Assembly (NCBI RefSeq): GCF_002159975.1
Contig: NZ_NFJR01000011.1
Span: forward strand, 1-64,000
DNA length: 64,000 nucleotides
Source: Barnesiella sp. An22
GTDB lineage: Bacteria; Bacteroidota; Bacteroidia; Bacteroidales; Barnesiellaceae
Direction of reading: 5' to 3'
Both the position numbers and the translations under genes were made by a program. This document shows, one piece after another, positions 21,909 through 35,984 of this stretch. The notes under the pieces were generated by a model. That model worked only from the letters and a program-made list of their open reading frames with translations, had not been told where the DNA came from and did not search any database. The stretch's first letter is position 1, and each line of letters opens with the position of its first letter.

Positions 21909-21921
21909 AAAAGAAAAGGTT

Positions 21922-23541
21922 ATGAAAAGATACATAGTGTGTTTGTGTGTGATTAGTGTACTGAGTTGGGGCTCCGTGGCCTCTTCATGTTCCGAGTCGC
22001 AAAATGATCTCTCCCGGCCGGTAAACGCTGCTTCGATAGCGTTTATTCCGCAACCGCAATCGGTCATCTACGACGGGGGTGGTATGGTTGTGCCTTCGTC
22101 GGTATCGGTAAGCGACGAGTTGACCGGCGGGCCCTATGCCTTGTTGGAGTCGACCGTAACCTCGTTGGGGGGCGAATTGGTTCGGCAGTCTGGCGGCCAG
22201 GCCTTTATTCGGCTTGTGGCCAATGCTTCGCTACAAGACGAGGAGTATAAGATAAAGACAACGCTCGACGGCATTACCCTTGAGTATGCGTCGTCACGAG
22301 GACTGTTGTGGGGTGTCCAGACCCTGCGTCAAATCTTGCTCCAGAGTTCGGCTTATGAAGGTGGCGGGCGTGTGTTACCGTTGCTCACATTATCCGATAA
22401 ACCCGAAAAGAGTTGGCGGGGATTCCATATCGATGTAGCCCGTCATGCTTTTACCATCGACTATCTGAAGAAGGTAATCGATATGCTTTCGTTCTACAAA
22501 ATCAACAAGTTGCAGATGCACTTGACCGACGACCAGGGTTGGCGCATGGAGATTAAGCGATACCCCGAACTGACGACAATAGGCGCCTGGCGCGAGTTCG
22601 ACGAGTACGACAAGCGTTGTCAGGAGCTGGCCCAGACCGACGCCTCGTTTGTAATCGACACCCGCTTCATTCGCAACAACAGCGAATATGGGGGCTATTA
22701 TACCCAGGAGGAGCTGTCGCAGTTGGTCGCATACGCTTCGGAGCGCGGTATCGAGATTATTCCCGAAATCGATATGCCGGGCCATTTCTCGGCGGCTATT
22801 CGGGCGTTTCCCAGTCTCTCCTGTACCAACGAGGCCGGCTGGGGGACCGAATTTTCATATCCCATCTGTGTAGGGAAGCCCGAGACCTATGAATTTTTGA
22901 AGAATATTCTGGACGAGGTGCTGAGTGTATTCCCGAGCGAATATATCCACATCGGAGCCGACGAGGTGGAGAAAGATAACTGGAAGAGTTGCCCTTATTG
23001 CCAGCAGATGATTCGCGACAAGGGGCTGATGAATGAGACCGAGTTGCAGAACTATTTTGTAGAACAGATGTCGGATTATGTCAAGAGCAAGGGGCGCAAG
23101 GTGATGGCTTGGGACGACGCCTTTTACAAGAACAGGCCGCTGGACTTGCTCTATACCTACTGGCGCGACTGGGAGTCGCAGCAGCCGGCCGATATTACCC
23201 AGAGCGGACATCCGCTGATATTTATGGAGTGGGGCCGTTTCTATTTGAGCGGGAACTCCTCTGACGAGTCGTTGAAGTCGCTTTACGAGTTTACCTTCGA
23301 GCCTCAGTTCCCCGGCATTGTACAGTCGCAGGTCCAGGGTTTCCAGGCTTGTGTGTGGACCGAAATGATACCCAACGAGCGCAAGTTCGGACAACACGTC
23401 TTCCCGGCATGTCAGGCATTCAGCGAAGTGGCTTGGGGAAGCAAGCGCGATTGGAGCCGGTTCACGAAAAACTTGCCGTGGCACTTGCAATGGCTCACCC
23501 GAAACGGATTGCATTACAGAACTCCCGGCTTTATCAAATAG
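21922..23541 (+). CDS. GH20 beta-N-acetylhexosaminidase lipoprotein
   Basis: A 539-residue exo-beta-N-acetylhexosaminidase. Lipoprotein signal with Cys in SVASSC. A GH20b domain is followed by the catalytic barrel: RGFHIDVARHAFTIDYLKKVIDML, MHLTDDQGWRMEIKRYPELT, and HIGADEVEKDNW with the D347-E348 catalytic pair. It lacks the extra N- and C-terminal domains of the neighbouring GH20, so the two probably differ in linkage or localisation. It also has a CPYC motif (SCPYCQQ) after the active-site acid. Confidence 0.93.
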   Translation: MKRYIVCLCVISVLSWGSVASSCSESQNDLSRPVNAASIAFIPQPQSVIYDGGGMVVPSSVSVSDELTGGPYALLESTVTSLGGELVRQSGGQAFIRLVANASLQDEEYKIKTTLDGITLEYASSRGLLWGVQTLRQILLQSSAYEGGGRVLPLLTLSDKPEKSWRGFHIDVARHAFTIDYLKKVIDMLSFYKINKLQMHLTDDQGWRMEIKRYPELTTIGAWREFDEYDKRCQELAQTDASFVIDTRFIRNNSEYGGYYTQEELSQLVAYASERGIEIIPEIDMPGHFSAAIRAFPSLSCTNEAGWGTEFSYPICVGKPETYEFLKNILDEVLSVFPSEYIHIGADEVEKDNWKSCPYCQQMIRDKGLMNETELQNYFVEQMSDYVKSKGRKVMAWDDAFYKNRPLDLLYTYWRDWESQQPADITQSGHPLIFMEWGRFYLSGNSSDESLKSLYEFTFEPQFPGIVQSQVQGFQACVWTEMIPNERKFGQHVFPACQAFSEVAWGSKRDWSRFTKNLPWHLQWLTRNGLHYRTPGFIK

Positions 23542-23568
23542 AATGAATGACCCGTTAAAAAAAGAGAG

Positions 23569-24723
23569 ATGATGAAAACCGAACGGTTAATGTCGTTAGA
23601 TGTGTTACGGGGTATCACGGTGGCCGGTATGATTCTGGTCAATAACCCCGGCGATTGGGGGCATATCTATGCCCCGCTGAAACATGCCGAGTGGAACGGG
23701 CTTACGCCCACCGACCTGGTGTTCCCGTTTTTTATGTTTGTAATGGGTGTCTCCATGTGCTTTTCGTTCCGGAAATTCGATTACCGGCCTACTCGGGAGT
23801 TTGTGGTCAAGCTGGTTAAGCGTACGGCCATTCTGTTCCTTCTGGGTGTAGCTCTTTCGTGGGTTTCGCTCGTGCTGTCGCGATGGATGTCGCCCGAAGG
23901 AACGATGTCGTGGAGCCAGATACTTTTCCCCTTCGAGCAGGTGCGCGTCTGGGGCGTATTGCAACGCCTGGCACTCTCTTACTTTTTTGCTTCCCTGCTG
24001 GTGGTTACGGTGCGTAACAGGCGGGTGCTGGGCTGTGTCGTAGCCGGTATTTTGCTGCTCTATGGGCTGGTCTTGGCCTGGGGGCATGGATTTGAATTGT
24101 CTACGGCCAATGTGATAGCCGTCGTCGACCGGGCATTGGTAGGCGAGAGTCACATGTATCTCGAGTGGCTGCCCGACGGGGGGCGCATCAGGTTCGACCC
24201 CGAGGGGCTTGTCAGCACGTTGCCGGGTATTGCGCATGTGTTGATAGGATTCTTTTGCGGACGTCTTTTGTTGAGCTCGAAATCCTTGAACGAGAAGATG
24301 GCCGACCTGGCCGTGGCGTGTGCCGCACTGCTCATCGTCGGGTTCTTGCTGGGGTATGGTTGCCCGATCAACAAAAAGGTGTGGAGCCCGTCGTATGTAC
24401 TGGTTACCTGTGGTTTTGCCATGCTCACCCTCATCTTGCTGATGTGGATTATCGATGTGCGCAAGATGCAACGCTGGACCTATCCGTTCCGGGCATTCGG
24501 GTGCAATCCGTTGTTTATCTATGTCTTTGCCAGTTTCCTGGCCATTGTGCTGGAGACGATTCCCTGCGGCGGCTTTTCGGTTAAGGATCAGGTGTACATG
24601 TGGATAGCCGGGTGGGCCGTCGTGCCTCAGTTGGCGTCGCTCATCTATGCACTGGTGTATGTGGCTTTCAACGGATTACTGGCCTGTGTGCTGCTGAAAA
24701 AAGAGATATTTGTCAAGGTGTAA
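23569..24723 (+). CDS. NagX/HGSNAT-like membrane acyltransferase (DUF5009/DUF1624 type)
   Basis: A 384-residue inner-membrane protein with about ten hydrophobic helices. The N-terminal signature SLDVLRGITVAGMILVNNPGDW and FPFFMFVMGVSM are those of the heparan-alpha-glucosaminide N-acetyltransferase-like family. Bacterial members (NagX) often occur in GlcNAc or chitin-oligosaccharide regulons. It starts 27 bases after the second GH20, so it belongs to the PUL operon. It may acetylate amino sugars or help move them across the inner membrane; neither role is shown by sequence. Confidence 0.85.
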   Translation: MMKTERLMSLDVLRGITVAGMILVNNPGDWGHIYAPLKHAEWNGLTPTDLVFPFFMFVMGVSMCFSFRKFDYRPTREFVVKLVKRTAILFLLGVALSWVSLVLSRWMSPEGTMSWSQILFPFEQVRVWGVLQRLALSYFFASLLVVTVRNRRVLGCVVAGILLLYGLVLAWGHGFELSTANVIAVVDRALVGESHMYLEWLPDGGRIRFDPEGLVSTLPGIAHVLIGFFCGRLLLSSKSLNEKMADLAVACAALLIVGFLLGYGCPINKKVWSPSYVLVTCGFAMLTLILLMWIIDVRKMQRWTYPFRAFGCNPLFIYVFASFLAIVLETIPCGGFSVKDQVYMWIAGWAVVPQLASLIYALVYVAFNGLLACVLLKKEIFVKV

Positions 24724-24843
24724 CACCTGGAAGTCGAGTATCCTTTGGGTAGTTGTCTTAAAATAGCGGCTAAATTTTAATAAAAAAGTGAGCCGTGTAT
24801 ATGTTTTTTAAGTTTGTAGATAGAGGTAGTCGCTAAAAATGTT

Positions 24844-24851
24844 TATCTTTG
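24844..24851 (+). promoter_or_regulatory. -7 box of the aldolase gene
   Basis: TATCTTTG 34 bases upstream of the ATG at 24886. A TTTG at 24813-24816 is too far upstream (27 bases) to be an ideal -33 box. Confidence 0.55.
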
Positions 24852-24885
24852 CGGTAGAATTTACTAACCAATAATTTATAATAAG

Positions 24886-25884
24886 ATGGTAAGCTACAAA
24901 GAATTAGGATTGGTAAACACCAGAGAGATGTTTGCCAAGGCTATCAAAGGCGGATATGCTATCCCTGCTTTCAACTTCAACAACATGGAACAGATGCAGG
25001 CAATTATCCAAGCAGCCGTAGAAACGAAATCGCCTGTGATTCTGCAAGTATCGAAAGGCGCTCGTAATTATGCCAACCAGACGTTGCTCCGTTATATGGC
25101 ACAAGGCGCCGTAGAATACGCCAAAGAGTTGGGTTGCGAACATCCTCAAATCGTGTTGCACCTCGACCACGGCGATTCGTTCGAATTGTGCAAATCGTGT
25201 ATCGACACAGGTTTCTCTTCGGTGATGATCGACGGTTCTCACCTGCCTTACGAAGAGAATGTAGCCCTCACGAAAAAAGTAGTTGACTATGCACACCAGT
25301 TCGATGTAACCGTTGAAGGTGAGCTGGGCGTTCTCGCCGGTGTTGAGGATGAGGTTTCGGCCGAACACCACACCTACACCAACCCCGAAGAGGTTATCGA
25401 CTTCGCACACCGCACGGGTTGCGACTCGCTGGCTATCTCGATCGGTACTTCGCACGGTGCCTACAAGTTCAAACCCGAGCAATGCCACGTAGACCCCGCT
25501 ACGGGTCGTCTGGTACCTCCTCCCTTGGCATTCGACGTTCTCGACGCCGTTATGGAGAAACTCCCGGGCTTCCCCATCGTACTGCACGGCTCTTCGTCGG
25601 TTCCCCAAGAAGAGGTCGACACCATCAACAAATACGGAGGCAAACTCGAAGCTGCTATCGGTATCCCCGAAGAGGAGCTGCGTAAAGCTGCCAAATCGGC
25701 CGTTTGCAAAATCAACATCGACTCCGACAGCCGTCTGGCCATGACCGCTGCTATCCGCGAGGTATTCGCTACGAAACCCGCCGAGTTCGATCCTCGTAAA
25801 TACCTGGGTCCGGCTCGTGAAAACATGAAGAAACTCTACATTCACAAAATCGAGAATGTATTGGGTAGCGCCGGCAAACTCTAA
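24886..25884 (+). CDS. fba: Class II fructose-bisphosphate aldolase
   Basis: A 332-residue zinc-dependent glycolytic enzyme (FBP to DHAP plus G3P). PAFNFNNMEQMQAI, the zinc-site HLDHGDSFE segment, SVMIDGSHLPYEENV, and EGELGVLAGVEDEVSAEHHTYTNPEE are class II hallmarks. HGSSSVPQ and the C-terminal KINIDSDSRLAMTAA complete the active site. Codons favour GTA, GCT and CGT forms more than in the flanking genes, as expected for a highly expressed gene. It has its own promoter and a strong terminator, so it is separate from the PUL. Confidence 0.95.
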   Translation: MVSYKELGLVNTREMFAKAIKGGYAIPAFNFNNMEQMQAIIQAAVETKSPVILQVSKGARNYANQTLLRYMAQGAVEYAKELGCEHPQIVLHLDHGDSFELCKSCIDTGFSSVMIDGSHLPYEENVALTKKVVDYAHQFDVTVEGELGVLAGVEDEVSAEHHTYTNPEEVIDFAHRTGCDSLAISIGTSHGAYKFKPEQCHVDPATGRLVPPPLAFDVLDAVMEKLPGFPIVLHGSSSVPQEEVDTINKYGGKLEAAIGIPEEELRKAAKSAVCKINIDSDSRLAMTAAIREVFATKPAEFDPRKYLGPARENMKKLYIHKIENVLGSAGKL

Positions 25885-25912
25885 TCGATAGTTCGAATAG
25901 GCTTTATAAAGG

Positions 25913-25950
25913 CCGCCGATTTCCGTCAGGGAGATCGGCGGTTTTTTTTT
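25913..25950 (+). terminator. Intrinsic terminator of fba
   Basis: CCGCCGAT (25913-25920) pairs with ATCGGCGG (25934-25941) and is followed immediately by nine T. This is a textbook terminator 29 bases after the stop codon. Confidence 0.9.
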
Positions 25951-26060
25951 CACTTAGGGGCAAGAGGCCAGAGTTGCGGTAGGTCTGATGACATCGGCAC
26001 ATGTCTCGTCTGTTGGGCAAGAATGAGAGATTGCTTGGGTCGGGGAGTGTGTGAGGATTT

Positions 26061-26231
26061 AAAAAAAAAAGTTCTGCCGGAATCTCGATATCATAAAAAA
26101 AGGGGACTGATAGTATAACGATTCACATCGTTGTTTTTTCCGGCAGAACTGTATAGATATTCAGTAAAAAATATTTTGCATCTTTTTTCGCTCTTTCCTT
26201 TTATTGAAAGGGAGTATCGCGATTTTGAATC
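26061..26231 (-). ncRNA. Candidate small RNA (~170 nt), unknown family
   Basis: On the minus strand a full promoter (26237-26268) is followed by about 170 bases without a convincing ORF. These end in a long-range stem, AGTTCTGCCGGAA (26138-26150) with TTCCGGCAGAACT (26070-26082), 13 perfect pairs, then about ten T. Inside the loop a second perfect hairpin (AACGAT-GTGA-ATCGTT) lies at 26117-26132. A tiny ATG frame of six codons (MQNIFY) occurs in the 5' half and could be chance. Promoter plus terminator with no gene between convergent neighbours supports an independent transcript. I cannot match it to a known RNA class. Confidence 0.6.
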
Positions 26232-26236
26232 CGAGA

Positions 26237-26268
26237 CAAAGGTAGTATTTTCAAATGATAAAACAAAA
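26237..26268 (-). promoter_or_regulatory. Promoter of the candidate small RNA
   Basis: Minus-strand -7 box TACCTTTG (26237-26244) and TTTTG (26264-26268) separated by 19 bases. This is the best match to the Bacteroidales promoter consensus in the window. No gene lies downstream of it on that strand. Confidence 0.7.
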
Positions 26269-26461
26269 TTATATTTGGATTCTGTGCATGAATAAAAATT
26301 TTTTCTTTCCTCGTCGGGACGGCCTTTTACGGAGGATTCACCCCAACCGGGAGAGGTGTATCTAAATAATTGTCACTCCCTTATCGCGGGCGTTATCGGC
26401 CCGATGGAATCGGTATAATCGCTTGTCTGCGTTAATAAGAAAATACAAGTGTTTTGTAATT

Positions 26462-27331
26462 TTATATTTTGGGAGCGCTTGTAGGCTGCTTGGCGAGGAC
26501 TTCGGTGATTCTTTTCCCGGTCTCCTCGTATAGCCACAGGGCCTTGGGCAGATGAACGACCCGGGGAGGAATGGGGGTGTGTTTCCGCTTTTTGAATATT
26601 TCGCCGGTGACGCCATAGGCTTCGGGGGCGGTGGCGGCATAGAGGGCTCCTGACGCTCCCTCTTGCGGGGTGCTGATGAAGGGGCGGAAGAACCGGTTGG
26701 CCAGCGGGTCGACCCACGAGTGCATGGTGATCATGTCGGTGTCGACTACCCCCGGGTCGGCGGCATTGACCCAGATGCCCCGCGGGCGAAGCTCCTGAGC
26801 CAGGCGTGCGGTATAGAGGGTGAGGGCGAGTTTCGACTTGCTGTATGCCTCGAACCGTTTGTACTTGTGCGGCGGTGCCCCGAAGAAGGTATCGTCGATT
26901 TTGCCGATGTAGCGGGTGAGCGAGGTGGTGGTGACGATGCGGCTGCCGGGGTGCATGAGGGGGAGCAGCATGCGGGTGAGCAGTACGGTGCCTATGTAGT
27001 TGACCCCGATGGTCGACTCGAAGCCGTCGGCCGTTTGGCTGTAATGCTGGTTCATGACGCCGGCATTGTTGAGTAGCGCCTGTATCGAGATGGACTCTTG
27101 CGACAGGTGTTCGGCAAAACTGATAATCGAGGCAAACGAGGCGAGGTCGAGCGGCAGCAGGGTGATGTCGGTATTGCCCGTCTTTTCGATGATGCGCTGT
27201 TGCACGGGTTGCGATTTGGCCAGATTGCGGCAGGCCATGATTACGGGCTGCCCTTGTGCAGCGATGGCCTCGGTGAGAGCCTGCCCTATGCTGCCGTTGG
27301 CTCCGGTGATGATGTAATACTCTTTATTCAT
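26462..27331 (-). CDS. Short-chain dehydrogenase/reductase, last gene of the steroid-type operon
   Basis: A 289-residue Rossmann-fold oxidoreductase of the retinol-dehydrogenase/protochlorophyllide-reductase-like SDR branch. TGANGSIG is at 9-16, ACRN at 33-36 (Arg favours NADPH), NNAG at 88-91, and catalytic Y163-SKS-K167, with TTTSLTR supplying the Ser. Its start overlaps the stop of the preceding SDR by 8 bases, so translation is coupled. In this operon a hydroxysteroid (3-, 7-, 12- or 17-) dehydrogenase role is likely, but position and stereochemistry cannot be read from sequence. Confidence 0.85.
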   Translation of the reverse strand: MNKEYYIITGANGSIGQALTEAIAAQGQPVIMACRNLAKSQPVQQRIIEKTGNTDITLLPLDLASFASIISFAEHLSQESISIQALLNNAGVMNQHYSQTADGFESTIGVNYIGTVLLTRMLLPLMHPGSRIVTTTSLTRYIGKIDDTFFGAPPHKYKRFEAYSKSKLALTLYTARLAQELRPRGIWVNAADPGVVDTDMITMHSWVDPLANRFFRPFISTPQEGASGALYAATAPEAYGVTGEIFKKRKHTPIPPRVVHLPKALWLYEETGKRITEVLAKQPTSAPKI

Positions 27332-28121
27332 CGAGCATGCGGTGTTTGACTATGAGACGTACCCGGGTGGGCATGACGGCCGCCAGCGGGATGAGCAGGC
27401 GGTTGAACAGGCCCGGGATGAGTTGTTTTTTCCCTCGGAAGAGGGCATTGAGAGCTTTTCGCACGAGGCGTTCGGGAGTCATGAGTACCCCGAGCCGTAC
27501 CCCCAGTTTCAACAGCCGGGGCGGCAGGCCGTACAGCCCGGTGGCTATTCCGCCGGGACATACGACGGTGGCATGCACGCCATAGTCGTGCAGTTCGCAG
27601 GCCAGGGCCCGGGTGAATACCCGTATGTAGGCTTTGGTAGCCGTGTAGAGGGCGATGCCGGGATAGGGTGTCCAGCACGAGAGCGACGACATGTTGAGCA
27701 GATAGCCGCGGCGACGGGCGCACATGTCGGCGGCAAACAGTCGCGACAGCCGGGTGACGGTGCCGATGTGCAGCTGCAGCATGGTCTCGATTTTGGCCGG
27801 GTCGGTGCGGGCAACCTCGCGGAAGGAGAAGATGCCGGCGTTGTTGATGAGAATGTCGATGGTCAGCTCCTTCTCCCAGCAATAGCGATAGAGTTCGTTG
27901 GCTGCTTCGGGGCGGGCCAGGTCCATGCAGAGGGTCTCGACCGGCACCCGATAGTCGTTGGCAATGCGGGCCGCTTCGCGCTCGAGGTCGTCGCGGTCGA
28001 TGCTCACCATCACGAGGGCGGCTCCCCAGGCTGCCAGTTGCCGGGCAAACTCGAGGCCGATGCCCGAGCTGGCGCCGGTCACGAGGGCCGTGCCCGGTGC
28101 AAGATCTCTATTTCGCATCAT
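27324..28121 (-). CDS. Short-chain dehydrogenase/reductase, putative hydroxysteroid dehydrogenase
   Basis: A 265-residue classical SDR: TGASSGIG 15-22, NNAG 93-96, Ser in MSSLS near 145, and Y159-TAT-K163. The remaining C-terminus (LIPGLFNRLLIPLAAVMPTRVRLIVKH) is hydrophobic and resembles the 17-beta-HSD12/3-ketosteroid group. Overlaps the stop of the flavin reductase gene by 14 bases and the start of the next SDR by 8 bases. Best guess is a 3-hydroxysteroid (3-alpha or 3-beta) dehydrogenase working with the neighbouring delta4-reductases. Confidence 0.85.
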   Translation of the reverse strand: MMRNRDLAPGTALVTGASSGIGLEFARQLAAWGAALVMVSIDRDDLEREAARIANDYRVPVETLCMDLARPEAANELYRYCWEKELTIDILINNAGIFSFREVARTDPAKIETMLQLHIGTVTRLSRLFAADMCARRRGYLLNMSSLSCWTPYPGIALYTATKAYIRVFTRALACELHDYGVHATVVCPGGIATGLYGLPPRLLKLGVRLGVLMTPERLVRKALNALFRGKKQLIPGLFNRLLIPLAAVMPTRVRLIVKHRMLDE

Positions 28122-29358
28122 GGCGGTGTATCCTTTCTATCTCTTTGACGATGCAGGGGGGCAGCTGCCCTTCGAGGTGTTTGTGACAGGCCATCTCGAT
28201 GGAGTACATGCGGGCTATGCAGTAGTTGGTGTGGTCGCATCCGCAGCGCACCTCTTCTTCGTTTTTCATGCGGTTGACAAAGTCGGGTTCGTTGATGAGG
28301 GCACGTCCCATCTGCACAAACTCGAATCCGTGGTCGAGCACCTTGTCGATGGTGGGTCGCGATACCAGACCGCCCACGTAGATGAGGGGGAGCCTGAGCG
28401 CTTCGCGGAACTTGAGGGCATCGTCGAGGAAGTAGGCTTCGCGGAAGGGAACGGTCGGAATCATGAACCGTCCGGCCAGCTTCACGCCGTATTTGAGCCA
28501 CCACGTCTTCATGTAGTAGGTGAGGGTGGTGATGGGCATCTCGCCCCGCATCACATACATGGGGGCCTTGCTCACGAAACCGCCGCTCAATACCAGGGCA
28601 TGGGCCCCCAGTTGCTCGAGCTCGCGGGCGATGAGGATGCCTTCGTCGATTTCGATGCCTCCTTTGAATCCGTCGCGCATGTTGGTCTTGACGATGACAG
28701 CCATGTCGTTACCGGCCGCCTTCATCACCTGCTCCATGCACATGCGCATGAACCGCATGCGGTTGTCGAGCGAACCGCCGTACTCGTCGTGACGGTGGTT
28801 GGTATAGGGCGAGAGGAACTGGCTGATGAGGTAGCCGTGTCCGGCGTGAATCTCTACGGCATCGAATCCGGCATCGCGGGCGTTGTTGACCGCCTCGCCG
28901 AAGGCACGGGCCATCGCCTCGATTTCGTCCTTGTGCATGCCTCGTACGAAGGTGGGCGAGTAGAGGTTGAATCCGGTCGAGGCCGAGATGGGTATCTGCC
29001 CGGCCGTGCTGCGGTGCGACATGTTGCCGCAGTGTCCCAGCTGGATGGAGGCTTTGGCTCCCTCGGCATGAATGGCGTCGGTGATGCGGCGCAACGGTTT
29101 CACGATTTCGGGGCGCATCCACAACTGGTGTTTGAACGAGAGCCCGTTGCGGGTAACCGAGGCGTAGGCGAGCGTGGTCATGCCTATGCCGCCGGCAGCC
29201 ACGCTGCGGTGGTAGTCATACAGTTTTTGGGTAGGGGCGTTGTTGTCGCACATCCCTTCGAAGGCGGCCGACCGTATGGTGCGGTTGCGCAGGGTGACGG
29301 GCCCTATCGAGGCCGGTGTAAAGAGTATGGACTCTTTGGGAGCAGTATCGTTGTTCAT
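28108..29358 (-). CDS. Old-Yellow-Enzyme-type NADH:flavin oxidoreductase (putative steroid/bile acid delta4-reductase, 5-beta type)
   Basis: A 416-residue FMN TIM-barrel enzyme. Active-site H171-AGH-G-Y176 and FLSPYTNHRHDEYGGSLDNR are typical of the 2,4-dienoyl-CoA reductase/BaiCD branch. That branch normally has ~640-680 residues with a 4Fe-4S site and a C-terminal FAD/NAD domain. Here the protein ends soon after a Cys-rich tail (C372, C374, C380, C391), so the NAD(P)H-binding module is absent. It starts 4 bases downstream of the 5-alpha-reductase stop. Proteins of this kind beside a 5-alpha-reductase in gut Bacteroidales have been reported as 5-beta-reductases of 3-oxo-delta4 bile acids; I infer the same here. 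Confidence 0.85.
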   Translation of the reverse strand: MNNDTAPKESILFTPASIGPVTLRNRTIRSAAFEGMCDNNAPTQKLYDYHRSVAAGGIGMTTLAYASVTRNGLSFKHQLWMRPEIVKPLRRITDAIHAEGAKASIQLGHCGNMSHRSTAGQIPISASTGFNLYSPTFVRGMHKDEIEAMARAFGEAVNNARDAGFDAVEIHAGHGYLISQFLSPYTNHRHDEYGGSLDNRMRFMRMCMEQVMKAAGNDMAVIVKTNMRDGFKGGIEIDEGILIARELEQLGAHALVLSGGFVSKAPMYVMRGEMPITTLTYYMKTWWLKYGVKLAGRFMIPTVPFREAYFLDDALKFREALRLPLIYVGGLVSRPTIDKVLDHGFEFVQMGRALINEPDFVNRMKNEEEVRCGCDHTNYCIARMYSIEMACHKHLEGQLPPCIVKEIERIHRHDAK

Positions 29359-29362
29359 GATT

Positions 29363-30136
29363 TCAATAGATGAAAGGGATTATCTTTTTACGTTTTTCGC
29401 GGGTAAATTCTTCGCCGAACTCCTGGGTGTAGCGTTTGTAGAGCGATGCCGAACGGGGAGCCAGGTTGGCAAAGGTCCACCAGGCAAAGACGGCTCCGGC
29501 CCACGACCAGGTGAAGATGGCGAAGCCTACCCACTCGAGAAACTCGCCGAAGTAGTTGGCCGACGATACCCAGCGGAACATGCCGCCCCGCGGTATGTAG
29601 TGCTTGCGGTCGCCCGGTTTGCGCAGATGGCGTATGATGGAGTCGGACTGGATGTTGATGAACATGCCGGCCGCAAAGGCGATGACACCGATGATAAACT
29701 GAGGCGAGGTGAACCAGGCCGGGGTATAGTAGTCGAGCGGCGAGATGTAGAAAATCCAGCCGCCTTGCATGAAGGCGTTGAGCAGGTTGAAGACGATGCC
29801 CATGCTCACGATGCTGAGCGGCATGCGGCTGTTGCCCTTGATGAGGAAGGGGAAGATGAACGAGCGTTGGAAATAGTGCAACTCGAACAGCACCAGAAAG
29901 ACGATGCGCACCGGGTCGTAGCGGTATTCGGCCGGAGCCAGCAGCCACAACACGAGCATGGCGACGAATACCGGTGCCTCCATCACCACCCACCCGATGC
30001 GGTTGGAGAGGGAGATTCCCCACTTGCGGTCGAAGAGCATGCCGTAGCCGGCACTTACGAAGTGGAGGGCGATGAACACGATGAGAGCCGTGACGGCCAT
30101 CACAATCAGAAAGATATTGAATGTGGCGGTTTCCAT
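29363..30136 (-). CDS. Steroid 5-alpha-reductase family membrane protein (3-oxo-5-alpha-steroid 4-dehydrogenase)
   Basis: A 257-residue protein with about seven hydrophobic helices. The C-terminal half reads like human SRD5A: NIQSDSIIRHLRKPG (161-175), YIPRGGMF (180-187), SSANYFGEFLEWVGF (191-205), TWS, and the end KKIIPFIY. Aligned by eye with SRD5A2, catalytic E57, Y91 and E197 correspond to E53, Y88 and E198, while Q56 is Met52. It should reduce the delta4 double bond of 3-oxo-delta4 steroids or bile acids with NADPH, giving the 5-alpha (allo) product. First gene of a four-gene minus-strand operon. Confidence 0.9.
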   Translation of the reverse strand: METATFNIFLIVMAVTALIVFIALHFVSAGYGMLFDRKWGISLSNRIGWVVMEAPVFVAMLVLWLLAPAEYRYDPVRIVFLVLFELHYFQRSFIFPFLIKGNSRMPLSIVSMGIVFNLLNAFMQGGWIFYISPLDYYTPAWFTSPQFIIGVIAFAAGMFINIQSDSIIRHLRKPGDRKHYIPRGGMFRWVSSANYFGEFLEWVGFAIFTWSWAGAVFAWWTFANLAPRSASLYKRYTQEFGEEFTREKRKKIIPFIY

Positions 30137-30180
30137 GGGCGGTTGAAAAATGAATTGATTATTATATGGTTATCAATAGA

Positions 30181-30211
30181 CAAAGATAGTAAAAGGTAAG
30201 GGCAGAGACAA
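30181..30211 (-). promoter_or_regulatory. Promoter of the steroid-type reductase operon
   Basis: Minus-strand -7 box TATCTTTG (30181-30188) with TTG (30209-30211) 20 bases upstream. The operon start is 44 bases downstream of the -7 box. A second TATCTTTG (30271-30278) lies 90 bases further upstream and may be an alternative start. Both sit in a sequence that is repeated at 62594-62705. Confidence 0.65.
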
Positions 30212-30291
30212 CTGGAAAACCAAGTTTTCAACATTTGACCATGTCGAACCCCCATCTTGTCTTTGAGTAACAAAGATAGTGAAAATCGGGG
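30181..30291 (-). repeat. Dispersed promoter-associated repeat, copy A
   Basis: Two related boxes, both reading CAAAGATAGTRAAA on the plus strand, lie 90 bases apart (30181 and 30271). The first continues as AGGTAAGGGCAGAGACAA. It is closely similar to 62594-62626, and the second box resembles 62678-62705. Both copies are oriented so that the -7 motif faces the minus-strand gene. Confidence 0.7.
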
Positions 30292-30452
30292 AGATACGTT
30301 TGCATTTAAATACTTTTCTTAAAAGCTCTGTATTTTTACATAAAGAAACATTTTCCCGCTTATTATAAGCGGAGAGAGAGGGTTTTGCATTCGAAACGGG
30401 CGGATAAATATTTAAAAATAGATAATTGCCCCGAATAAATCGACGGAGCGTT

Positions 30453-30460
30453 TAATTTTG
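30453..30460 (+). promoter_or_regulatory. -7 box of the PCMD-type gene
   Basis: TAATTTTG 20 bases upstream of the ATG at 30481. This implies a very short leader. No clear -33 box was seen. Confidence 0.5.
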
Positions 30461-30480
30461 CACCTTCTGAATTTGTGAAA

Positions 30481-31458
30481 ATGGATATGAAGAAGATGCA
30501 AAAAACAACACTGTGGATGGCTCTGTGCAGCCTGTTGTCGGTGAGCAGTGCCTATGCCCAGCGTGTAGAGCCGCTGCCTTTTGCCGATTTTGAACATTGG
30601 GTAACCCGCGAAATCAAAGAGTCGGCCCTGTTGGGAGGCAAGACCAAGACAGTCTATGCCATAGCTCCTACCCAACACATCAAGGGAAACAAAGCCTATC
30701 GGAACATGGGCGGTTCGCCCTGGGCTTCGTCGAATGTAATGGCCAACGTGATGGGGGTGGTGAAGACCAGTAATACCGTCCGCCCCGAGAAACGCGAGGG
30801 GGGAGGCACCTGTGCCCGCATGGAGACCGTGATTGAGGATTGCTGCGTGCTGGGCATGATGAATCTGCACGTGCTGGTGAGCGGCAGTATCTTCCTGGGC
30901 GAGGTCGACGAGCCTATCCGCTCGACCAACAGTCCGTACAGCAAGATGGAGATGGGTATCCCCTTTACCAAGCGACCCACCCGATTGATTTTCGATTACA
31001 AGTATCAGGCTTCGCCCGACAACTTCCGTACCCAGTCGACCGGTTTCAGCTCGCGCAAGCAGTTGCCCGGTCGCGACAATGGCGAGGTCTATATTCTGTT
31101 GCAGCACCGTTGGGAAGATGCCGACGGCAATGTGTACGCTCACCGGGTAGGTACCGGGCGTGAGCGCTACGGCAAGAGTACTGCCGGTTGGGTGAATGGT
31201 CATAGCCTTACCATTCACTATGGCGACATCACTGACAAGCCCTTCTACAAATCGTACATGGGGCTTATTCCCGAAGAGAGTTCGTACTATTGCCGCAACA
31301 GCAAGGGCAAGATGGTGCCCGTAATCGAGGTGGGCTGGGGCAAGCCCGACGAGCCGGTCACGCACATGCTTGTGATGGCTTCGGCCACTTGCGGCACCGC
31401 CTATGTGGGCGGATTGGGCAGTACCCTCTGGATCGACAATATCGCTCTGGGGTATTAG
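30481..31458 (+). CDS. Secreted PCMD-like (putative carbohydrate metabolism domain) protein
   Basis: A protein of about 325 residues with a signal peptide (TTLWMALCSLLSVSSAYAQ, cleaved after AYA). The mature part starts LPFADFEHWVTREIKES, with the motifs TNSPYSKMEMGIPFTKRPTRLIFDYKY and GWGKPDEPVTHMLVMASATCGTAYVGGLGSTLWIDNIALGY. The last is the end expected of PCMD-type beta-sandwich domains, a Bacteroidetes family of unproven function. Start is ATG 30481; an in-frame GTG at 30475 is less likely. It is divergent from the reductase operon and ends in a strong terminator. Confidence 0.75.
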   Translation: MDMKKMQKTTLWMALCSLLSVSSAYAQRVEPLPFADFEHWVTREIKESALLGGKTKTVYAIAPTQHIKGNKAYRNMGGSPWASSNVMANVMGVVKTSNTVRPEKREGGGTCARMETVIEDCCVLGMMNLHVLVSGSIFLGEVDEPIRSTNSPYSKMEMGIPFTKRPTRLIFDYKYQASPDNFRTQSTGFSSRKQLPGRDNGEVYILLQHRWEDADGNVYAHRVGTGRERYGKSTAGWVNGHSLTIHYGDITDKPFYKSYMGLIPEESSYYCRNSKGKMVPVIEVGWGKPDEPVTHMLVMASATCGTAYVGGLGSTLWIDNIALGY

Positions 31459-31484
31459 GCTAGTAAGAGTTTATGGAGATATAG

Positions 31485-31519
31485 AGGGCTCGGATGGATT
31501 GGATTCGGGCCCTTTTTTT
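31485..31519 (+). terminator. Intrinsic terminator of the PCMD-type gene
   Basis: AGGGCTCGGAT (31485-31495) pairs with ATTCGGGCCCT (31503-31513), including two G-T pairs, and runs into seven T. Confidence 0.8.
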
Positions 31520-31526
31520 GTGTGGT

Positions 31527-32279
31527 TCAGTTCTGTTTGAAGATATAGACGATAACCCCTGTCTGGTTCGACGAGCGGTTGCTGCGTTCGAATCGCGAGC
31601 GGCGGGCGGCCGCTTCGGCCGAGGCCCGCAGTTTGGGGTTGGAGAAGGCGGTGCCTTCGCTGCCTTTGACGGTGGCGATGGCGCTGATGACCTGTCCCTG
31701 GGGGTTGACTGTAATCGAAATGGCTATGGTGCCGGCGTCGTTGCTGTTGTCGTATTGGGGATAGGGCAGGGAGCCAACCAGCCCGCGGCCGCCCAGGTTG
31801 TAGCCGCCGTAGCCGCCCACGCCGGTGAGTTCGCCGGTCGATGCGTTGCCGAAGGGGTTGCCCTGTGTGCCGCTGCCCTTGTCGCTGTCGCCGCGGCTGC
31901 CGTCGTTCGACACACCTTTGCCAAAGGCATTCTTCACCTGATTGGCAATGCGGTCGTCCTTTTTGTTTTCCTGAACGGCTTTTTTCTTTTTATCCTCCTC
32001 TTTCTTCTTCTCGATTTGGATGCTCTCCTCGTCGGTCTGGGTTATCAGCTCGTCGTCGTTTTCGCGCGGTTGCTCGGCCTGTGGCCGCTGCGGCTCGGTG
32101 GCGTTCGACTCGAACATGCCCGAGGCTTCGTCGACCAGTCCCACTTGTACCAGCACGCCGCTGCCCGACCCCATGGGCTCGGGTCCCAGCAGGGTAAACC
32201 ACAAGACGAGCAGCACTACCAGATGCACGGCAACGGTAGCGGCAATGGCTTGTATCTTATCTCTTTTCTGTGGTTCCAT
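31527..32279 (-). CDS. TonB-family energy transducer
   Basis: A 250-residue protein with one N-terminal transmembrane helix (IQAIAATVAVHLVVLLVLWFTLL, about 9-31). A charged, Glu/Lys-rich and Gly/Asn-rich periplasmic linker follows. The C-terminal domain (TIAISITVNPQGQVISAIATVKGSEGTAFSNPKLRASAEAAARRSRF) is TonB/TolA-like. With the ExbB and ExbD proteins encoded just upstream it should couple the proton gradient to outer-membrane SusC-type transporters. Last gene of the pdxJ-exbB-exbD-tonB operon. Confidence 0.85.
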   Translation of the reverse strand: MEPQKRDKIQAIAATVAVHLVVLLVLWFTLLGPEPMGSGSGVLVQVGLVDEASGMFESNATEPQRPQAEQPRENDDELITQTDEESIQIEKKKEEDKKKKAVQENKKDDRIANQVKNAFGKGVSNDGSRGDSDKGSGTQGNPFGNASTGELTGVGGYGGYNLGGRGLVGSLPYPQYDNSNDAGTIAISITVNPQGQVISAIATVKGSEGTAFSNPKLRASAEAAARRSRFERSNRSSNQTGVIVYIFKQN

Positions 32280-32319
32280 GGGTGGGGTGTTCGATTCTGT
32301 TTTTGAGGTGGTGTTCGGT

Positions 32320-32736
32320 TTACGGGTTACGCACCGGTTTGGTGGCCAGTACCATCTTCAGGTGGTTGTCGTTGGCGACATTGAGTATCTTGACAATCTC
32401 GCGATAGGGTACCGTCTCGTCGGCATAGAGGGCTATGTAGCGCTCGCTATCCTGCTGGGGCGTTTCGGCGAGCCGTTGCACCAGCTGATCGTAGGTAACG
32501 GGCTGCGGGGCCTCGTTGCCGAAAGCGATGTAGTAGTCGTTGTGCTCGTCGATTACTACCCGGGTGAGGGGCTTGGCTGCCGCCTGCTGGTTGCTTTGCG
32601 GCAGGTTCACCTTGATGGAGTTGGGAAAGACAATCGTCGAGGTAATCATAAAGAAGATGAGCAACAGAAAGATGACATCGGTCATCGATGCCATGCTGAA
32701 TGTGGCCTCTATCTTGTGTCTTCGTTTCAGTGCCAT
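32320..32736 (-). CDS. exbD: ExbD/TolR-family biopolymer transport protein
   Basis: A 138-residue inner-membrane protein. A short cytoplasmic N-terminus (RRHKIEATFSMASMTDVIFLLLIFFMITSTIV) carries the conserved Asp of the ExbD/TolR transmembrane helix (MTDVIFLLLIFFM). A periplasmic domain follows. It is part of the proton channel with ExbB. Encoded 18 bases after exbB and 40 bases before the tonB-like gene. Confidence 0.92.
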   Translation of the reverse strand: MALKRRHKIEATFSMASMTDVIFLLLIFFMITSTIVFPNSIKVNLPQSNQQAAAKPLTRVVIDEHNDYYIAFGNEAPQPVTYDQLVQRLAETPQQDSERYIALYADETVPYREIVKILNVANDNHLKMVLATKPVRNP

Positions 32737-32754
32737 GGTCGTGTCTCCCTCGGG

Positions 32755-33456
32755 TTATTCGGCCGGCTCGTTGAGCAGGTCCATAAATTCCATTGTCTTG
32801 GACTCGAGCTGGTTCATCACGCCGTCGACGCGCGACACCAGGTAGTTGTAGGCAAAGAGGGCGATGATGCCCACGATAAGGCCGGCTACGGTGGTGACCA
32901 GAGCCTCGTAGATACCGCCCGAGAGGGTGGAGATGTCGGCGTTGTTACCGGCCGAAGCCATGTTGTAGAAGGCCCGTACCATACCGGTTACGGTACCGAG
33001 GAAGCCAATCATGGGAGCACCGGCTGCGGTGGTGGCGAGCCAGGGGAAACCCTTTTCGAGTTTGGCAATCTCGATGTTGCCCACGTTTTCGATGGCTACC
33101 AGTACGTCGTTCATGGGGCGACCCAGTCGCGAGATGCCTTTGGCAATGAGGCGCGAGTAGGGGGTGTTGGTCTTCTTGCAGAGCTTCAGGGCACTGTCGA
33201 TGTTCCCTTCGTGGATGTAGTCTTTGATGCGTTCCATGAACGAGTTGTCTTCGCGGGCGGCACGTCGGATGACTTGCAGTCGCTCGACGAAGATATAGAT
33301 CGAGAGCAGGGAGAGGAGCAACAGGGGTATCATGATGATTCCTCCCTTGCAGGCAAGGTCCCAGAGGTTCAAGTCGTTGGCGGCCTCGACCGGGGTAAGT
33401 ACGGGAGGCGTCACGATTGTGTCGGTAGTTTGCAGAAGCAACGTAAGCAGATTCAT
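32755..33456 (-). CDS. exbB: ExbB/TolQ/MotA-family proton channel protein
   Basis: A 233-residue inner-membrane protein with three transmembrane helices. The first is IIMIPLLLLSLLSIYIFVERL. The family core GFPWLATTAAGAPMIGFLGTVTGMVRAFYNMA and ALVTTVAGLIVGIIALFAYNYLVSRVD form the proton path. Encoded 18 bases downstream of pdxJ. Confidence 0.92.
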   Translation of the reverse strand: MNLLTLLLQTTDTIVTPPVLTPVEAANDLNLWDLACKGGIIMIPLLLLSLLSIYIFVERLQVIRRAAREDNSFMERIKDYIHEGNIDSALKLCKKTNTPYSRLIAKGISRLGRPMNDVLVAIENVGNIEIAKLEKGFPWLATTAAGAPMIGFLGTVTGMVRAFYNMASAGNNADISTLSGGIYEALVTTVAGLIVGIIALFAYNYLVSRVDGVMNQLESKTMEFMDLLNEPAE

Positions 33457-33474
33457 GATATAGCGTTTAATCGG

Positions 33475-34188
33475 TTATTTCAAGCACTCTTTGTATTGTC
33501 TGATAGTCTCTTTCAACCCCAGGTAGAGGGCGTCGCAGATGAGGCAGTGGCCTATGGAGACCTCGCTCAGGAAGGGGATGCGTTCGTGAAGAAAGCGCAA
33601 GTTCTCGAGGTTGAGGTCGTGGCCGGCATTCACGCCCAGCCCCAGGCTGCGGGCATGTTCGGCTGCCTTGACAAAGGGAGCCACGGCAGCTTCGCGGTCT
33701 TGTGCGTAGTGTGCGGCATAGGGTTCGGTGTAGAGCTCTATTCGGTCGGTGCCGGTCTTGGCGGCATACTCGACCATCTCGAGGTCGGGCTCGACAAAAA
33801 TCGAGGTGCGAATGTTGGCCGCCTTGCAGCGGTCGATAATCTTGGAGAGGAAGTCGAAGTGTGCCCGCGTGTCCCACCCGGCATTCGAGGTGATGACATT
33901 CTCGGCATCGGGCACCAGCGTCACCTGGTCGGGCTTCACCTTGAGTACCAGGTCGAGAAATTTTTCGGAGGGATATCCCTCGATATTGAACTCGGTGCTG
34001 ACGGCCGGCCTCAGCTCGTACACGTCGGCATAGCGAATGTGCCGCTCGTCGGGGCGCGGGTGCACGGTGATGCCCTCGGCTCCAAAGGATTCGCAATCGA
34101 GCGTGACTTTCAATACATTCGGAATATTGCCGCCTCGTGCGTTGCGCAAGGTAGCTATTTTGTTGACATTAACACTTAACTTGGTCAT
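33475..34188 (-). CDS. pdxJ: Pyridoxine 5'-phosphate synthase
   Basis: A 237-residue TIM-barrel enzyme that condenses 1-deoxyxylulose 5-phosphate with 3-amino-2-oxopropyl phosphate in the DXP-dependent vitamin B6 route. [17 protein letters not shown] and [20 protein letters not shown] at the N-terminus and [11 protein letters not shown] near the C-terminus are PdxJ signatures. First gene of the operon with exbBD and tonB, an arrangement common in Bacteroidales. Divergent from the CBS/nadK pair. Confidence 0.95.
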
Positions 34189-34285
34189 TTTCTCTTTTTA
34201 CCCTAATCGCTTTTTCCGGTGTGGCACTTTGTCGCTCGGTTTCAATGAAAAGAAACGGACTGCAGTATCAACCGAAAAAAATAGC

Positions 34286-34293
34286 TATCTTTG
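34286..34293 (+). promoter_or_regulatory. -7 box of the CBS-nadK operon
   Basis: TATCTTTG 49 bases upstream of the CBS-gene ATG at 34343. No good -33 box was seen. Confidence 0.55.
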
Positions 34294-34342
34294 TATAACT
34301 TTCGTGCAAAAATAATACGAATTACAGAAATATGCGCAATAA

Positions 34343-34999
34343 ATGAAAGCAAAAGATATGATATTGCCCGAAATACCCGTCTTGCTGGCCACGATGTCGG
34401 TGAACGAGGCGCGTGCGGCGCTGGAAAGCTCGGCCTGGTCGAGCCTGCCGGTGGTCGACGCGGGCGAGTATGTGGGCATTCTTCAGGCCGGGGAGTTGGC
34501 CGATGTGAACGGCGAAGAGACCGTGGGGCGGGAGAACTGGCGACGTCCGGCCGTGCGTGAGGAGACGCACCTGCTCGATGTGGTGAATCAGTTTGCCCAA
34601 TACACCGACGATGTGCTCCCCGTGGTCGATCAGCATCGCCGCTACGTGGGGGCTATCCCCATCCATGCGGTTATGGTGGCTGTGGCCCGGTTGTGCCAGA
34701 CGTCGTCGCCGGGAGCCATCATCGAACTGGAGATTCCGCGGGCCGACTATTCGGCTACCGAACTTACCCGCCTGGTCGAGGACAATGATTGTCGGGTGAT
34801 GAATTTGATGATACGTCCCGACGAGGAGTCGGGCATGTGGCGGGCTTGCCTGCGTATCGACCGCGAGGATGCCACGCCGGTGCTTCGCTCGCTCGAACGG
34901 TTCGACTACCGGGTGCTGAGTTGCTACCAGTTGCACAGTGCTATGGACGACCGCATCGAACAGCGTATCAAGGAGTTGATGTATTATCTGGAAATGTAG
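34343..34999 (+). CDS. CBS-domain protein with ACT-like C-terminus
   Basis: A 218-residue cytosolic protein. Two CBS motifs occupy about residues 1-125 (LLATMSVNEARAALESSAWSSLPVVD and THLLDVVNQFAQYTDDVLPVVDQHRRYVGAI). A C-terminal ACT-like part (GAIIELEIPRADYSATELTRLVEDNDCRVM) follows. Such pairs usually bind adenosine nucleotides or amino acids and regulate a partner. It ends 5 bases before nadK, so control of NADP supply is a reasonable inference. Confidence 0.8.
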   Translation: MKAKDMILPEIPVLLATMSVNEARAALESSAWSSLPVVDAGEYVGILQAGELADVNGEETVGRENWRRPAVREETHLLDVVNQFAQYTDDVLPVVDQHRRYVGAIPIHAVMVAVARLCQTSSPGAIIELEIPRADYSATELTRLVEDNDCRVMNLMIRPDEESGMWRACLRIDREDATPVLRSLERFDYRVLSCYQLHSAMDDRIEQRIKELMYYLEM

Positions 35000-35004
35000 G
35001 AGGG

Positions 35005-35883
35005 ATGATGAAGATATTGTTGTTTGGCCATAACTACCAGGGAGCCCGCCTGGCACAGGTACACCGGGTGTTGCAGGTCTTGTCGCGCACCGAGGCTTCG
35101 TTGGCGGCGCATCGCGATTTTTACGAACTTCTTTCGCGCGAGCTTCCCGACGTGTGCCGGGGTATCGAGCCGATTGACTGTTGCCGCGACTACCCGGCCG
35201 ACATGGCCTTGAGTATCGGGGGTGACGGCACCTTTTTGCGGGCTGCCGAAAAGATAGGCGACCGGGGTATCCCGGTATTGGGGGTCAATATCGGTCGTCT
35301 GGGTTTTCTGGCCGATGTACCGGCCGAAGAGACCGAGCGGGTCATGAACGAGATTGTGGCCGGTCGGTACAAAATCGAGGAGCGCTCGCTGCTGCAGGTC
35401 GAGCTGTCGGGATTGCCCGAAGGCTTTTGGCCCTATGCCCTCAACGAGGTGGCGGTGCTCAAGCAGGATACCTCGTCGATGATTTCGATTCATACGACGG
35501 TGGGCGAGAGCTATCTCAATACCTATCAGGCCGACGGCCTTATCGTGGCTACCCCCACAGGCTCTACGGCCTACTCGATGAGTGTGGGCGGCCCCATTCT
35601 CATGCCGCAGGCGGCCAACTGGGTTATTTCGCCGGTAGCCCCTCACAGCCTCACCGTGCGGCCATTGGTGGTGAACGACGACGCCTGCATTACCCTGCGG
35701 GTTGACAGCCGCAACCACAGCTATCTGCTGAGTCTCGACGGCCGCTCCATCATGCTCGATACCGATACGCAGGTGGTGCTGCGCAAGGCTCCTTTCCCCA
35801 TCCGGGTGGTGAAGCGGCTGGGCCACAGCTTTGCCGAGACGTTGCGGGCCAAGCTGATGTGGGGGGTCGACAAGCGCGAGTGA
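35005..35883 (+). CDS. nadK: NAD kinase
   Basis: A 292-residue cytosolic enzyme (NAD + ATP to NADP + ADP). The GGDGT motif is at 72-76, and NIGRLGFLAD, LNEVAVLKQDTSSMISI and DGLIVATPTGSTAYSMSVGGPI follow, as in all bacterial NadK. The start is one of two adjacent ATGs (35005/35008), preceded by AGGAGGG. The same frame is open back into the CBS gene, but that part is a shadow. Cotranscribed with the CBS gene. Confidence 0.95.
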   Translation: MMKILLFGHNYQGARLAQVHRVLQVLSRTEASLAAHRDFYELLSRELPDVCRGIEPIDCCRDYPADMALSIGGDGTFLRAAEKIGDRGIPVLGVNIGRLGFLADVPAEETERVMNEIVAGRYKIEERSLLQVELSGLPEGFWPYALNEVAVLKQDTSSMISIHTTVGESYLNTYQADGLIVATPTGSTAYSMSVGGPILMPQAANWVISPVAPHSLTVRPLVVNDDACITLRVDSRNHSYLLSLDGRSIMLDTDTQVVLRKAPFPIRVVKRLGHSFAETLRAKLMWGVDKRE

Positions 35884-35920
35884 GTCGTTGCGCTTTATTA
35901 TCTTCGACCGAATGAAATAG

Positions 35921-35965
35921 CGAACGCCCCGGCGGCCGGTTTGAATCCGGTTGCCGGGGCGTTCG
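35921..35965. terminator. Bidirectional terminator between nadK and the PspC-type gene
   Basis: CGAACGCCCCGGC (35921-35933) pairs perfectly with GCCGGGGCGTTCG (35953-35965); CCGG/CCGG extends the pairing within the loop. There is no T-run. It lies between convergent genes. Confidence 0.65.
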
Positions 35966-35984
35966 GGTGTTTAGGAAGCTATTG

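Follow-up and report, generated by a model that had tools for sequence, protein, structure and literature searches.

A four-gene operon of Barnesiella sp. An22, probably for steroid ring A remodelling, in which each of two short-chain dehydrogenases appears to have its own partner

The first 64,000 nucleotides of contig NZ_NFJR01000011.1 of Barnesiella sp. An22 (assembly GCF_002159975.1; hereafter the window) carry a four-gene minus-strand operon (26462-30136) encoding a 5-alpha-reductase resembling human SRD5A (5AR), a flavoprotein of the Old Yellow Enzyme (OYE) type, and two short-chain dehydrogenases/reductases (SDRs), here termed SDR-A and SDR-B. The two SDRs are not interchangeable: SDR-B goes with 5AR, and SDR-A goes with the OYE. 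With moderate confidence in the statement as a whole, we read the four genes as a single transcription unit that remodels the A ring of steroids oxygenated at C3 (bile acids being the most likely) through two half-pathways joined at a 3-oxo-delta4 intermediate.

The first gene, 5AR (29363..30136, minus strand, 257 aa), matches Pfam PF02544 (Steroid_dh, E 5.5e-43) with 147 bits versus a cut-off of 22.6. It is followed on the same strand by the OYE, a presumed delta4-3-oxo 5-beta-reductase/dehydrogenase (5BR-like; 28108..29358, 416 aa; PF00724, Oxidored_FMN, E 2.1e-55), by SDR-A, a presumed 5-beta-branch 3-hydroxysteroid dehydrogenase (HSDH) that is most likely 3alpha-specific (27324..28121, 265 aa; adh_short, E 2e-40), and by SDR-B, a presumed 5-alpha-branch 3beta-HSDH (26462..27331, 289 aa; adh_short, E 5.7e-30). 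A gap of 4 bases (29359-29362) separates 5AR from the OYE, the OYE and SDR-A overlap by 14 bases (28108-28121), and SDR-A and SDR-B overlap by 8 (27324-27331). The original prediction, made on the bare sequence, had given the same operon layout and the same four families, and both reproduce, the family matches lying far above chance. Gene order and tight spacing are kept in all eight other sampled genomes of the GTDB family, which belong to one genus (L095-L102), and thus in nine of nine with the window. With every one of the four family scores well over its cut-off, and with the order recurring across the nine genomes, the open reading frames are real, and chance or mis-called frames are ruled out.

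The pairing was observed in a sample of 393 Bacteroidales genomes, in which genes on the same strand less than 600 bases apart were taken as adjacent and the thresholds were E<=1e-15 for 5AR (E<1e-80 for its close type), E<=1e-100 for the OYE, E<1e-80 for SDR-A and E<1e-70 for SDR-B. A 5AR is present in 90 genomes and the close type in 47; among the latter, 46 have an OYE, 37 SDR-A, 30 SDR-B, and 46 (a derived count) at least one of the two SDRs. The OYE occurs in 65 genomes, 62 of them with a 5AR. Multi-gene arrangements comprise 5AR-OYE-SDR-A-SDR-B (16), 5AR-OYE-SDR-B (8), 5AR-OYE-SDR-A (8), OYE-SDR-A (8) and 5AR-OYE (7), and genes that stand singly by adjacency number 51 for 5AR, 18 for the OYE, 13 for SDR-A and 8 for SDR-B. 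The sample holds no OYE-SDR-B without 5AR, no 5AR-SDR-A without OYE and no 5AR-SDR-B without OYE; outside this tally, 5AR-SDR-B without an OYE alongside is found at L236, L239, L240 and the named loci L160 and L187. The presence of two SDRs rather than one had been singled out as worth attention, but by this count it is not rare: of the 16 genomes with the four-gene set, 11 lie outside the window's genus. Among the eight genomes with an OYE-SDR-A pair and no adjoining 5AR, one (G248) was so tallied although it has a same-strand 5AR 2.2 kb upstream; the other seven pairs, from five families, are clearly separate, and the 5AR elsewhere in these genomes is of the distant type in four, of the close type in two and absent in one (G295).

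The same division is seen within a single family, f106, which we infer to be Tannerellaceae (the Parabacteroides family) from the coordinates of one member, G450, which equal those of P. massiliensis locus L204. Here, of 59 genomes, 11 carry both 5AR and SDR-B and the rest carry neither; the two genes adjoin in all 11, three times without an OYE beside them (L236, L239 and L240 again); in one of the 11, G402, both frames are fragmented. SDR-A is found in 7 of the 59 at E<=1e-40, five times as a strong match, and the four strong cases without 5AR all bear the OYE-SDR-A pair (L226-L229), L226-L228 being three further 5AR-less genomes of the family with that pair. The SDR-A-like matches in 5AR-bearing genomes are weak in G399 and G409 and strong in G432.

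A set of named loci extends the comparison to taxa with reported activities. These 80 loci were the best among 579 confirmed candidates, so the tallies are biased to close relatives, and 12 of the 80 with less than 3.5 kb of downstream sequence were omitted from arrangement counts. Of the Alistipes loci with enough sequence, 21 of 22 are 5AR-OYE-SDR-A with SDR-B absent; both Parabacteroides loci (L199, L204; P. merdae itself is not among them) are 5AR-OYE-SDR-B without SDR-A; and an uncultured Odoribacter locus (L202) has all four genes. In the literature, P. merdae and Odoribacteraceae are listed for both 5AR and 3beta-HSDH, and Alistipes for 5AR without 3beta-HSDH (PMC12789469 Table 3, PMC12692668 Table 1). 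Since nearly all these Alistipes loci hold SDR-A only and Parabacteroides loci hold SDR-B, the listed 3beta-HSDH activity follows SDR-B within this small set of taxa. On a tree of 109 5AR rows with weak inner support and an arbitrary root, at least 11 changes are needed for SDR-A, 9 for SDR-B and 6 for the OYE; L142 and L191 were scored there as lacking SDR-A though it sits just upstream.

Several other 5AR arrangements were noted in the same material. A distant 5AR type (L057-L094, less than 48% identity) accounts for 43 of the 90 5AR genomes. None of the 31 such loci whose downstream sequence reaches 3.5 kb has it next to the OYE; several of its genomes have an OYE relative elsewhere, paired with SDR-A in G341 and in three genomes that share a genus. 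At three distant-type loci (L078, L081, L092) a remote SDR adjoins (47-55 bits, 24-25% identity) and was excluded from the SDR-A count. Two genomes of family f2 (G009, G127) each have two close-type 5AR copies, none beside an OYE or SDRs. One four-gene locus (L167) stands in a record titled Pseudoflavonifractor (Bacillota); its 5AR groups with Heminiphilus, and the record is probably a mislabelled metagenome bin.

Both SDRs carry the classical TGxxxGxG, NNAG and Ser-Tyr-Lys motifs, and they differ at the tetrad Asn. SDR-B has it (N111 in 55 of 56 rows, with S137, Y163 and K167 in 56 of 56) and, at the NADPH-type place, 48 of its 56 rows carry an Arg; SDR-A keeps S146-Y159-K163 in 92 of 92 rows and has His118 instead of the Asn in 91 of them. 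This His is not unprecedented, as the solved SDRs 2et6 and 3ai1 carry it at that position, and it therefore leaves SDR-A inside the superfamily. An origin of the two as recent duplicates is unsupported, each BLAST-called SDR favouring one type by at least 46 bits (at least 124 for SDR-B calls). The predicted structure of SDR-A (predicted local distance difference test score, pLDDT, 91.4) best matches the 7beta-HSDH 5gt9 (Z 31.6, root-mean-square deviation 2.7, 256 aligned residues) and 5fyd (Z 31.3), both from Collinsella aerofaciens; at 25% identity to the former, specificity cannot be read across. The bulky-ketone alcohol dehydrogenase 6ze0 (Z 30.4) and HSD17B13 (8g9v, Z 30.2) are nearly tied. 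The modelled matches support a bulky or steroid ketone as substrate and give no ring position.

The window 5AR matches the structures of bacterial PbSRD5A (7c83, E 4.4e-51) and human SRD5A2 (7bw1, E 5.2e-39) over nearly its full length. Glu53, Tyr88 and Glu198, the residues that had been proposed for a check against SRD5A2, align with human E57, Y91 and E197 and are kept in all 173 aligned 5AR rows, a number that includes duplicates because some genomes are in both locus sets (e.g. L097 and L128). Seven of the eight NADPH residues (human N160, D164, R171, N193, E197, R227, H231, Y235) are present, the place of H231 being taken by Leu232. In the paper on PbSRD5A, Gln56, Glu57 and Tyr91 form the catalytic QEY motif of human SRD5A2, and Gln56 mutants are inactive (PMC7815742). 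The window 5AR departs from this motif: Met52 occupies the place of Gln56, and the form Met-Glu...Tyr is found in 173/173 rows, in close and distant types alike. We therefore assign the protein to the family and not to the QEY type. The Met form is nevertheless probably active, judging from P. merdae, in which disruption of 5AR abolishes allo products (PMC10382948), and from the presence of P. massiliensis L204 among the Met rows.

The OYE is the sole Oxidored_FMN protein of the genome. Against the BaiCD equivalog model NF041087 it scores 190.5 bits with a cut-off of 825, so that it is not called BaiCD; the score is far below because the protein stops at 416 aa where the model has 642 positions, and the second, FAD/NAD(P)H-binding half is missing. 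Its predicted structure (pLDDT 90.6) is closest to 2-naphthoyl-CoA reductase (6qkg, Z 48.3), trimethylamine dehydrogenase (2tmd, 47.7) and E. coli dienoyl-CoA reductase (1ps9, 45.8), a ranking in which the top three lie within about 2.5 and several OYEs score 44-45. The alignment with these three runs through residue 414-416, and with single-domain OYEs (e.g. 3kru) it reaches only 369-370. In Fe-S flavoproteins of the OYE type, four Cys bind a 4Fe-4S cluster. All 47 aligned sequences have Cys at 110, 374, 380 and 391, whereas the first cluster Cys is unconserved (position 372 is Cys in 41 of 114 rows). The protein shares with the BaiCD/FadH/trimethylamine dehydrogenase type the FMN barrel and the C-terminal segment with invariant Cys374/380/391, and differs from it in the absent second half and the unconserved first cluster Cys.

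The pathway type is already known: the Bacteroidota 5AR/5BR/3beta-HSDH gene cluster was reportedly described by Sato et al. in Nature in 2021. In gut Bacteroidota, including P. merdae, it is given as 5AR, an NADH:flavin oxidoreductase likened to BaiCD/BaiH, and a 3beta-HSDH (PMC10382948). The original prediction had noted a likeness to such a cluster, which is borne out by comparison with two reviews (PMC10382948, PMC10672800). The window shares with it the SRD5A-like 5AR, the adjoining flavin oxidoreductase and an SDR; the cluster is described with three genes, whereas the window has four, SDR-A lying between the OYE and SDR-B; with the fourth gene, a second branch of the pathway appears complete. 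The activity assumed for the related three-gene cluster is taken from reviews, in one of which 5BR turns 3-oxolithocholic acid (3-oxoLCA) into 3-oxo-delta4-LCA, and 5AR and 3beta-HSDH then lead to isoalloLCA (PMC10672800). For P. distasonis, 5BR and 3alpha/3beta-HSDH chemistry on LCA forms has been reported (PMC11647740).

In the pathway proposed here, SDR-A would act at C3 of a 5-beta steroid, interconverting the hydroxyl there (3alpha, most likely) with the ketone, and the OYE would interconvert the 3-oxo-5-beta and 3-oxo-delta4 forms. On the 5-alpha side, 5AR would reduce 3-oxo-delta4 to 3-oxo-5-alpha with NADPH, and SDR-B would take the product to the 3beta-alcohol. All four together might turn an acid of the LCA or deoxycholic acid (DCA) type (3alpha, 5beta) into its isoallo form (3beta, 5alpha) in one organism. 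Substrate, direction and the C3 specificities of the SDRs are the inferred parts of this scheme. The earlier idea was that the set could yield both C5 forms from a delta4 substrate; since one review lets the flavoprotein run backwards (PMC10672800), the set may instead be a converter of 5-beta to 5-alpha steroids. The original interpretation thus keeps its families and its cluster, the second SDR proves not to be rare, and to this the partnerships of SDR-B with 5AR and of SDR-A with the OYE are now added. A more far-reaching version, which we offer tentatively, holds that an OYE-SDR-A (3alpha-HSDH) and a 5AR-SDR-B (3beta-HSDH) module were fused so that their hosts are self-sufficient from LCA/DCA to isoallo products, that 5AR works with Met-Glu-Tyr, and that the halved BaiCD-like OYE uses a separate electron carrier.

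Several observations weigh against the ring A scheme and its pairing. The Met for Gln in 5AR is one. The genomes counted are not independent in phylogeny, a single genus (g136) contributing three of the seven separate OYE-SDR-A pairs; SDR-A stands alone in 13 and SDR-B in 8 genome entries of the sample; SDR-A occurs with neither 5AR nor OYE in three genomes (G215, G280, G345) and SDR-B without 5AR in two (G116, G273); and the 5AR-OYE pairs of seven genomes lack an SDR within 600 bases. In one review, P. merdae converts LCA itself to isoalloLCA (PMC12916643), and as Parabacteroides loci lack SDR-A, this would make SDR-A unnecessary; other reviews, in contrast, require 3-oxoLCA from another species (PMC10672800). 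P. distasonis, a possible carrier of OYE-SDR-A, is listed for 3beta-HSDH too (PMC12692668), so its phenotype leaves the face on which SDR-A acts unfixed. B. dorei is given as an isoalloLCA producer in PMC10382948 and PMC12916643 and is not among the 3beta-HSDH entries of PMC12789469. Our confidence in the whole statement is held at its moderate level by the P. merdae claim, the double credit of P. distasonis and the genomes with a lone SDR-A.

The core may also be right with a different role for SDR-A, as a 3beta-HSDH on 5-beta substrates (isoLCA-type), a redundant C3 enzyme or an HSDH acting elsewhere (7beta, 17beta or 20), which we consider a possible but clearly less likely case. The structural proximity of its model to Collinsella 7beta-HSDH, HSD17B13 and the bulky-ketone alcohol dehydrogenase speaks for such a role, as do the P. 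distasonis listing (PMC12692668) and the three genomes in which SDR-A has neither partner. However, the structural scores differ little and leave the regiochemistry unspecified, and the adjacency of SDR-A to the OYE rather than to 5AR favours the C3 ketone of the 5-beta series. That the natural substrates are steroids from host or diet (androgens, progestins, sterols) and not bile acids seems rather unlikely to us. The solved 5AR relatives do act on 3-oxo-delta4 hormones (PMC7815742), and in women circulating dihydrotestosterone/testosterone has been tied to gut 5AR gene abundance (PMC12589954); the latter source links P. distasonis to that abundance, yet PMC6069880 reports its P. distasonis isolate to be without 5AR. 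Related Bacteroidota clusters, however, were demonstrated with bile acids (PMC10382948), and the genome has one choloylglycine-hydrolase family gene, outside the operon region, which fits bile acid exposure and is no proof of it. A non-steroid lipid substrate (isoprenoid or enoyl-CoA), with SRD5A likeness by fold only, appears highly improbable: the Met at the place of the required Gln56 and a weak match of 5AR to enoyl-CoA reductase 22of (E 8e-11) are outweighed by the far stronger match to SRD5A2, by the Glu/Tyr and most NADPH residues kept in every row, and by the loss of allo bile acids in the P. merdae mutant (PMC10382948).

Upstream of the operon, a promoter-like element, TATCTTTG (30181..30188, minus strand), lies about 45 bases 5' of the 5AR start, and a second copy (30271..30278, minus strand) about 135 bases 5' of it. 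The element fits the Bacteroidota -7 consensus, TANNTTTG; the window contains the motif at twice the frequency of shuffled sequence. An Rfam scan of 20000-36000 gave nothing at gathering score near the operon, and a scan for intrinsic terminators, whose totals were not above those of shuffles, gave none on the minus strand after SDR-B. The flanking genes, checked by family, are on the opposite strand and unrelated to steroids (a class II fructose-bisphosphate aldolase, 24886-25884, and a PCMD-domain protein, 30475-31458). The genome (3.35 Mb; GC content of the window 51-61%) has four SDRs above the Pfam cut-off, two of them in the operon. Elsewhere, the window holds a tandem pair of tRNA-Val (tac) genes on the minus strand (32-269) and, at 21922-24723, a glycoside hydrolase of family 20 and, after it, a membrane protein whose match to DUF5009 is below threshold.

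As far as the literature searched goes, the pairing of SDR-B with 5AR and of SDR-A with the OYE is what is new here. Neither SDR-A nor the pairing is described in the parts covered, from which Sato 2021 and Li 2021, which may already map the fourth gene, were absent; PMC12238238, on gut steroid reductases, gives no match to the Bacteroidota terms. IsoalloLCA-type acids are reported to inhibit Gram-positive pathogens including C. difficile (PMC10382948) and to act on regulatory T cells (PMC12697870, PMC12916643). The variant motif of 5AR and the halved flavoprotein pose testable questions of enzymology. If the pairing rule is true, the SDR content of a gut Bacteroidales species would predict which C3/C5 isomer of a bile acid or steroid it makes, and species with all four genes would be candidate single-organism producers.

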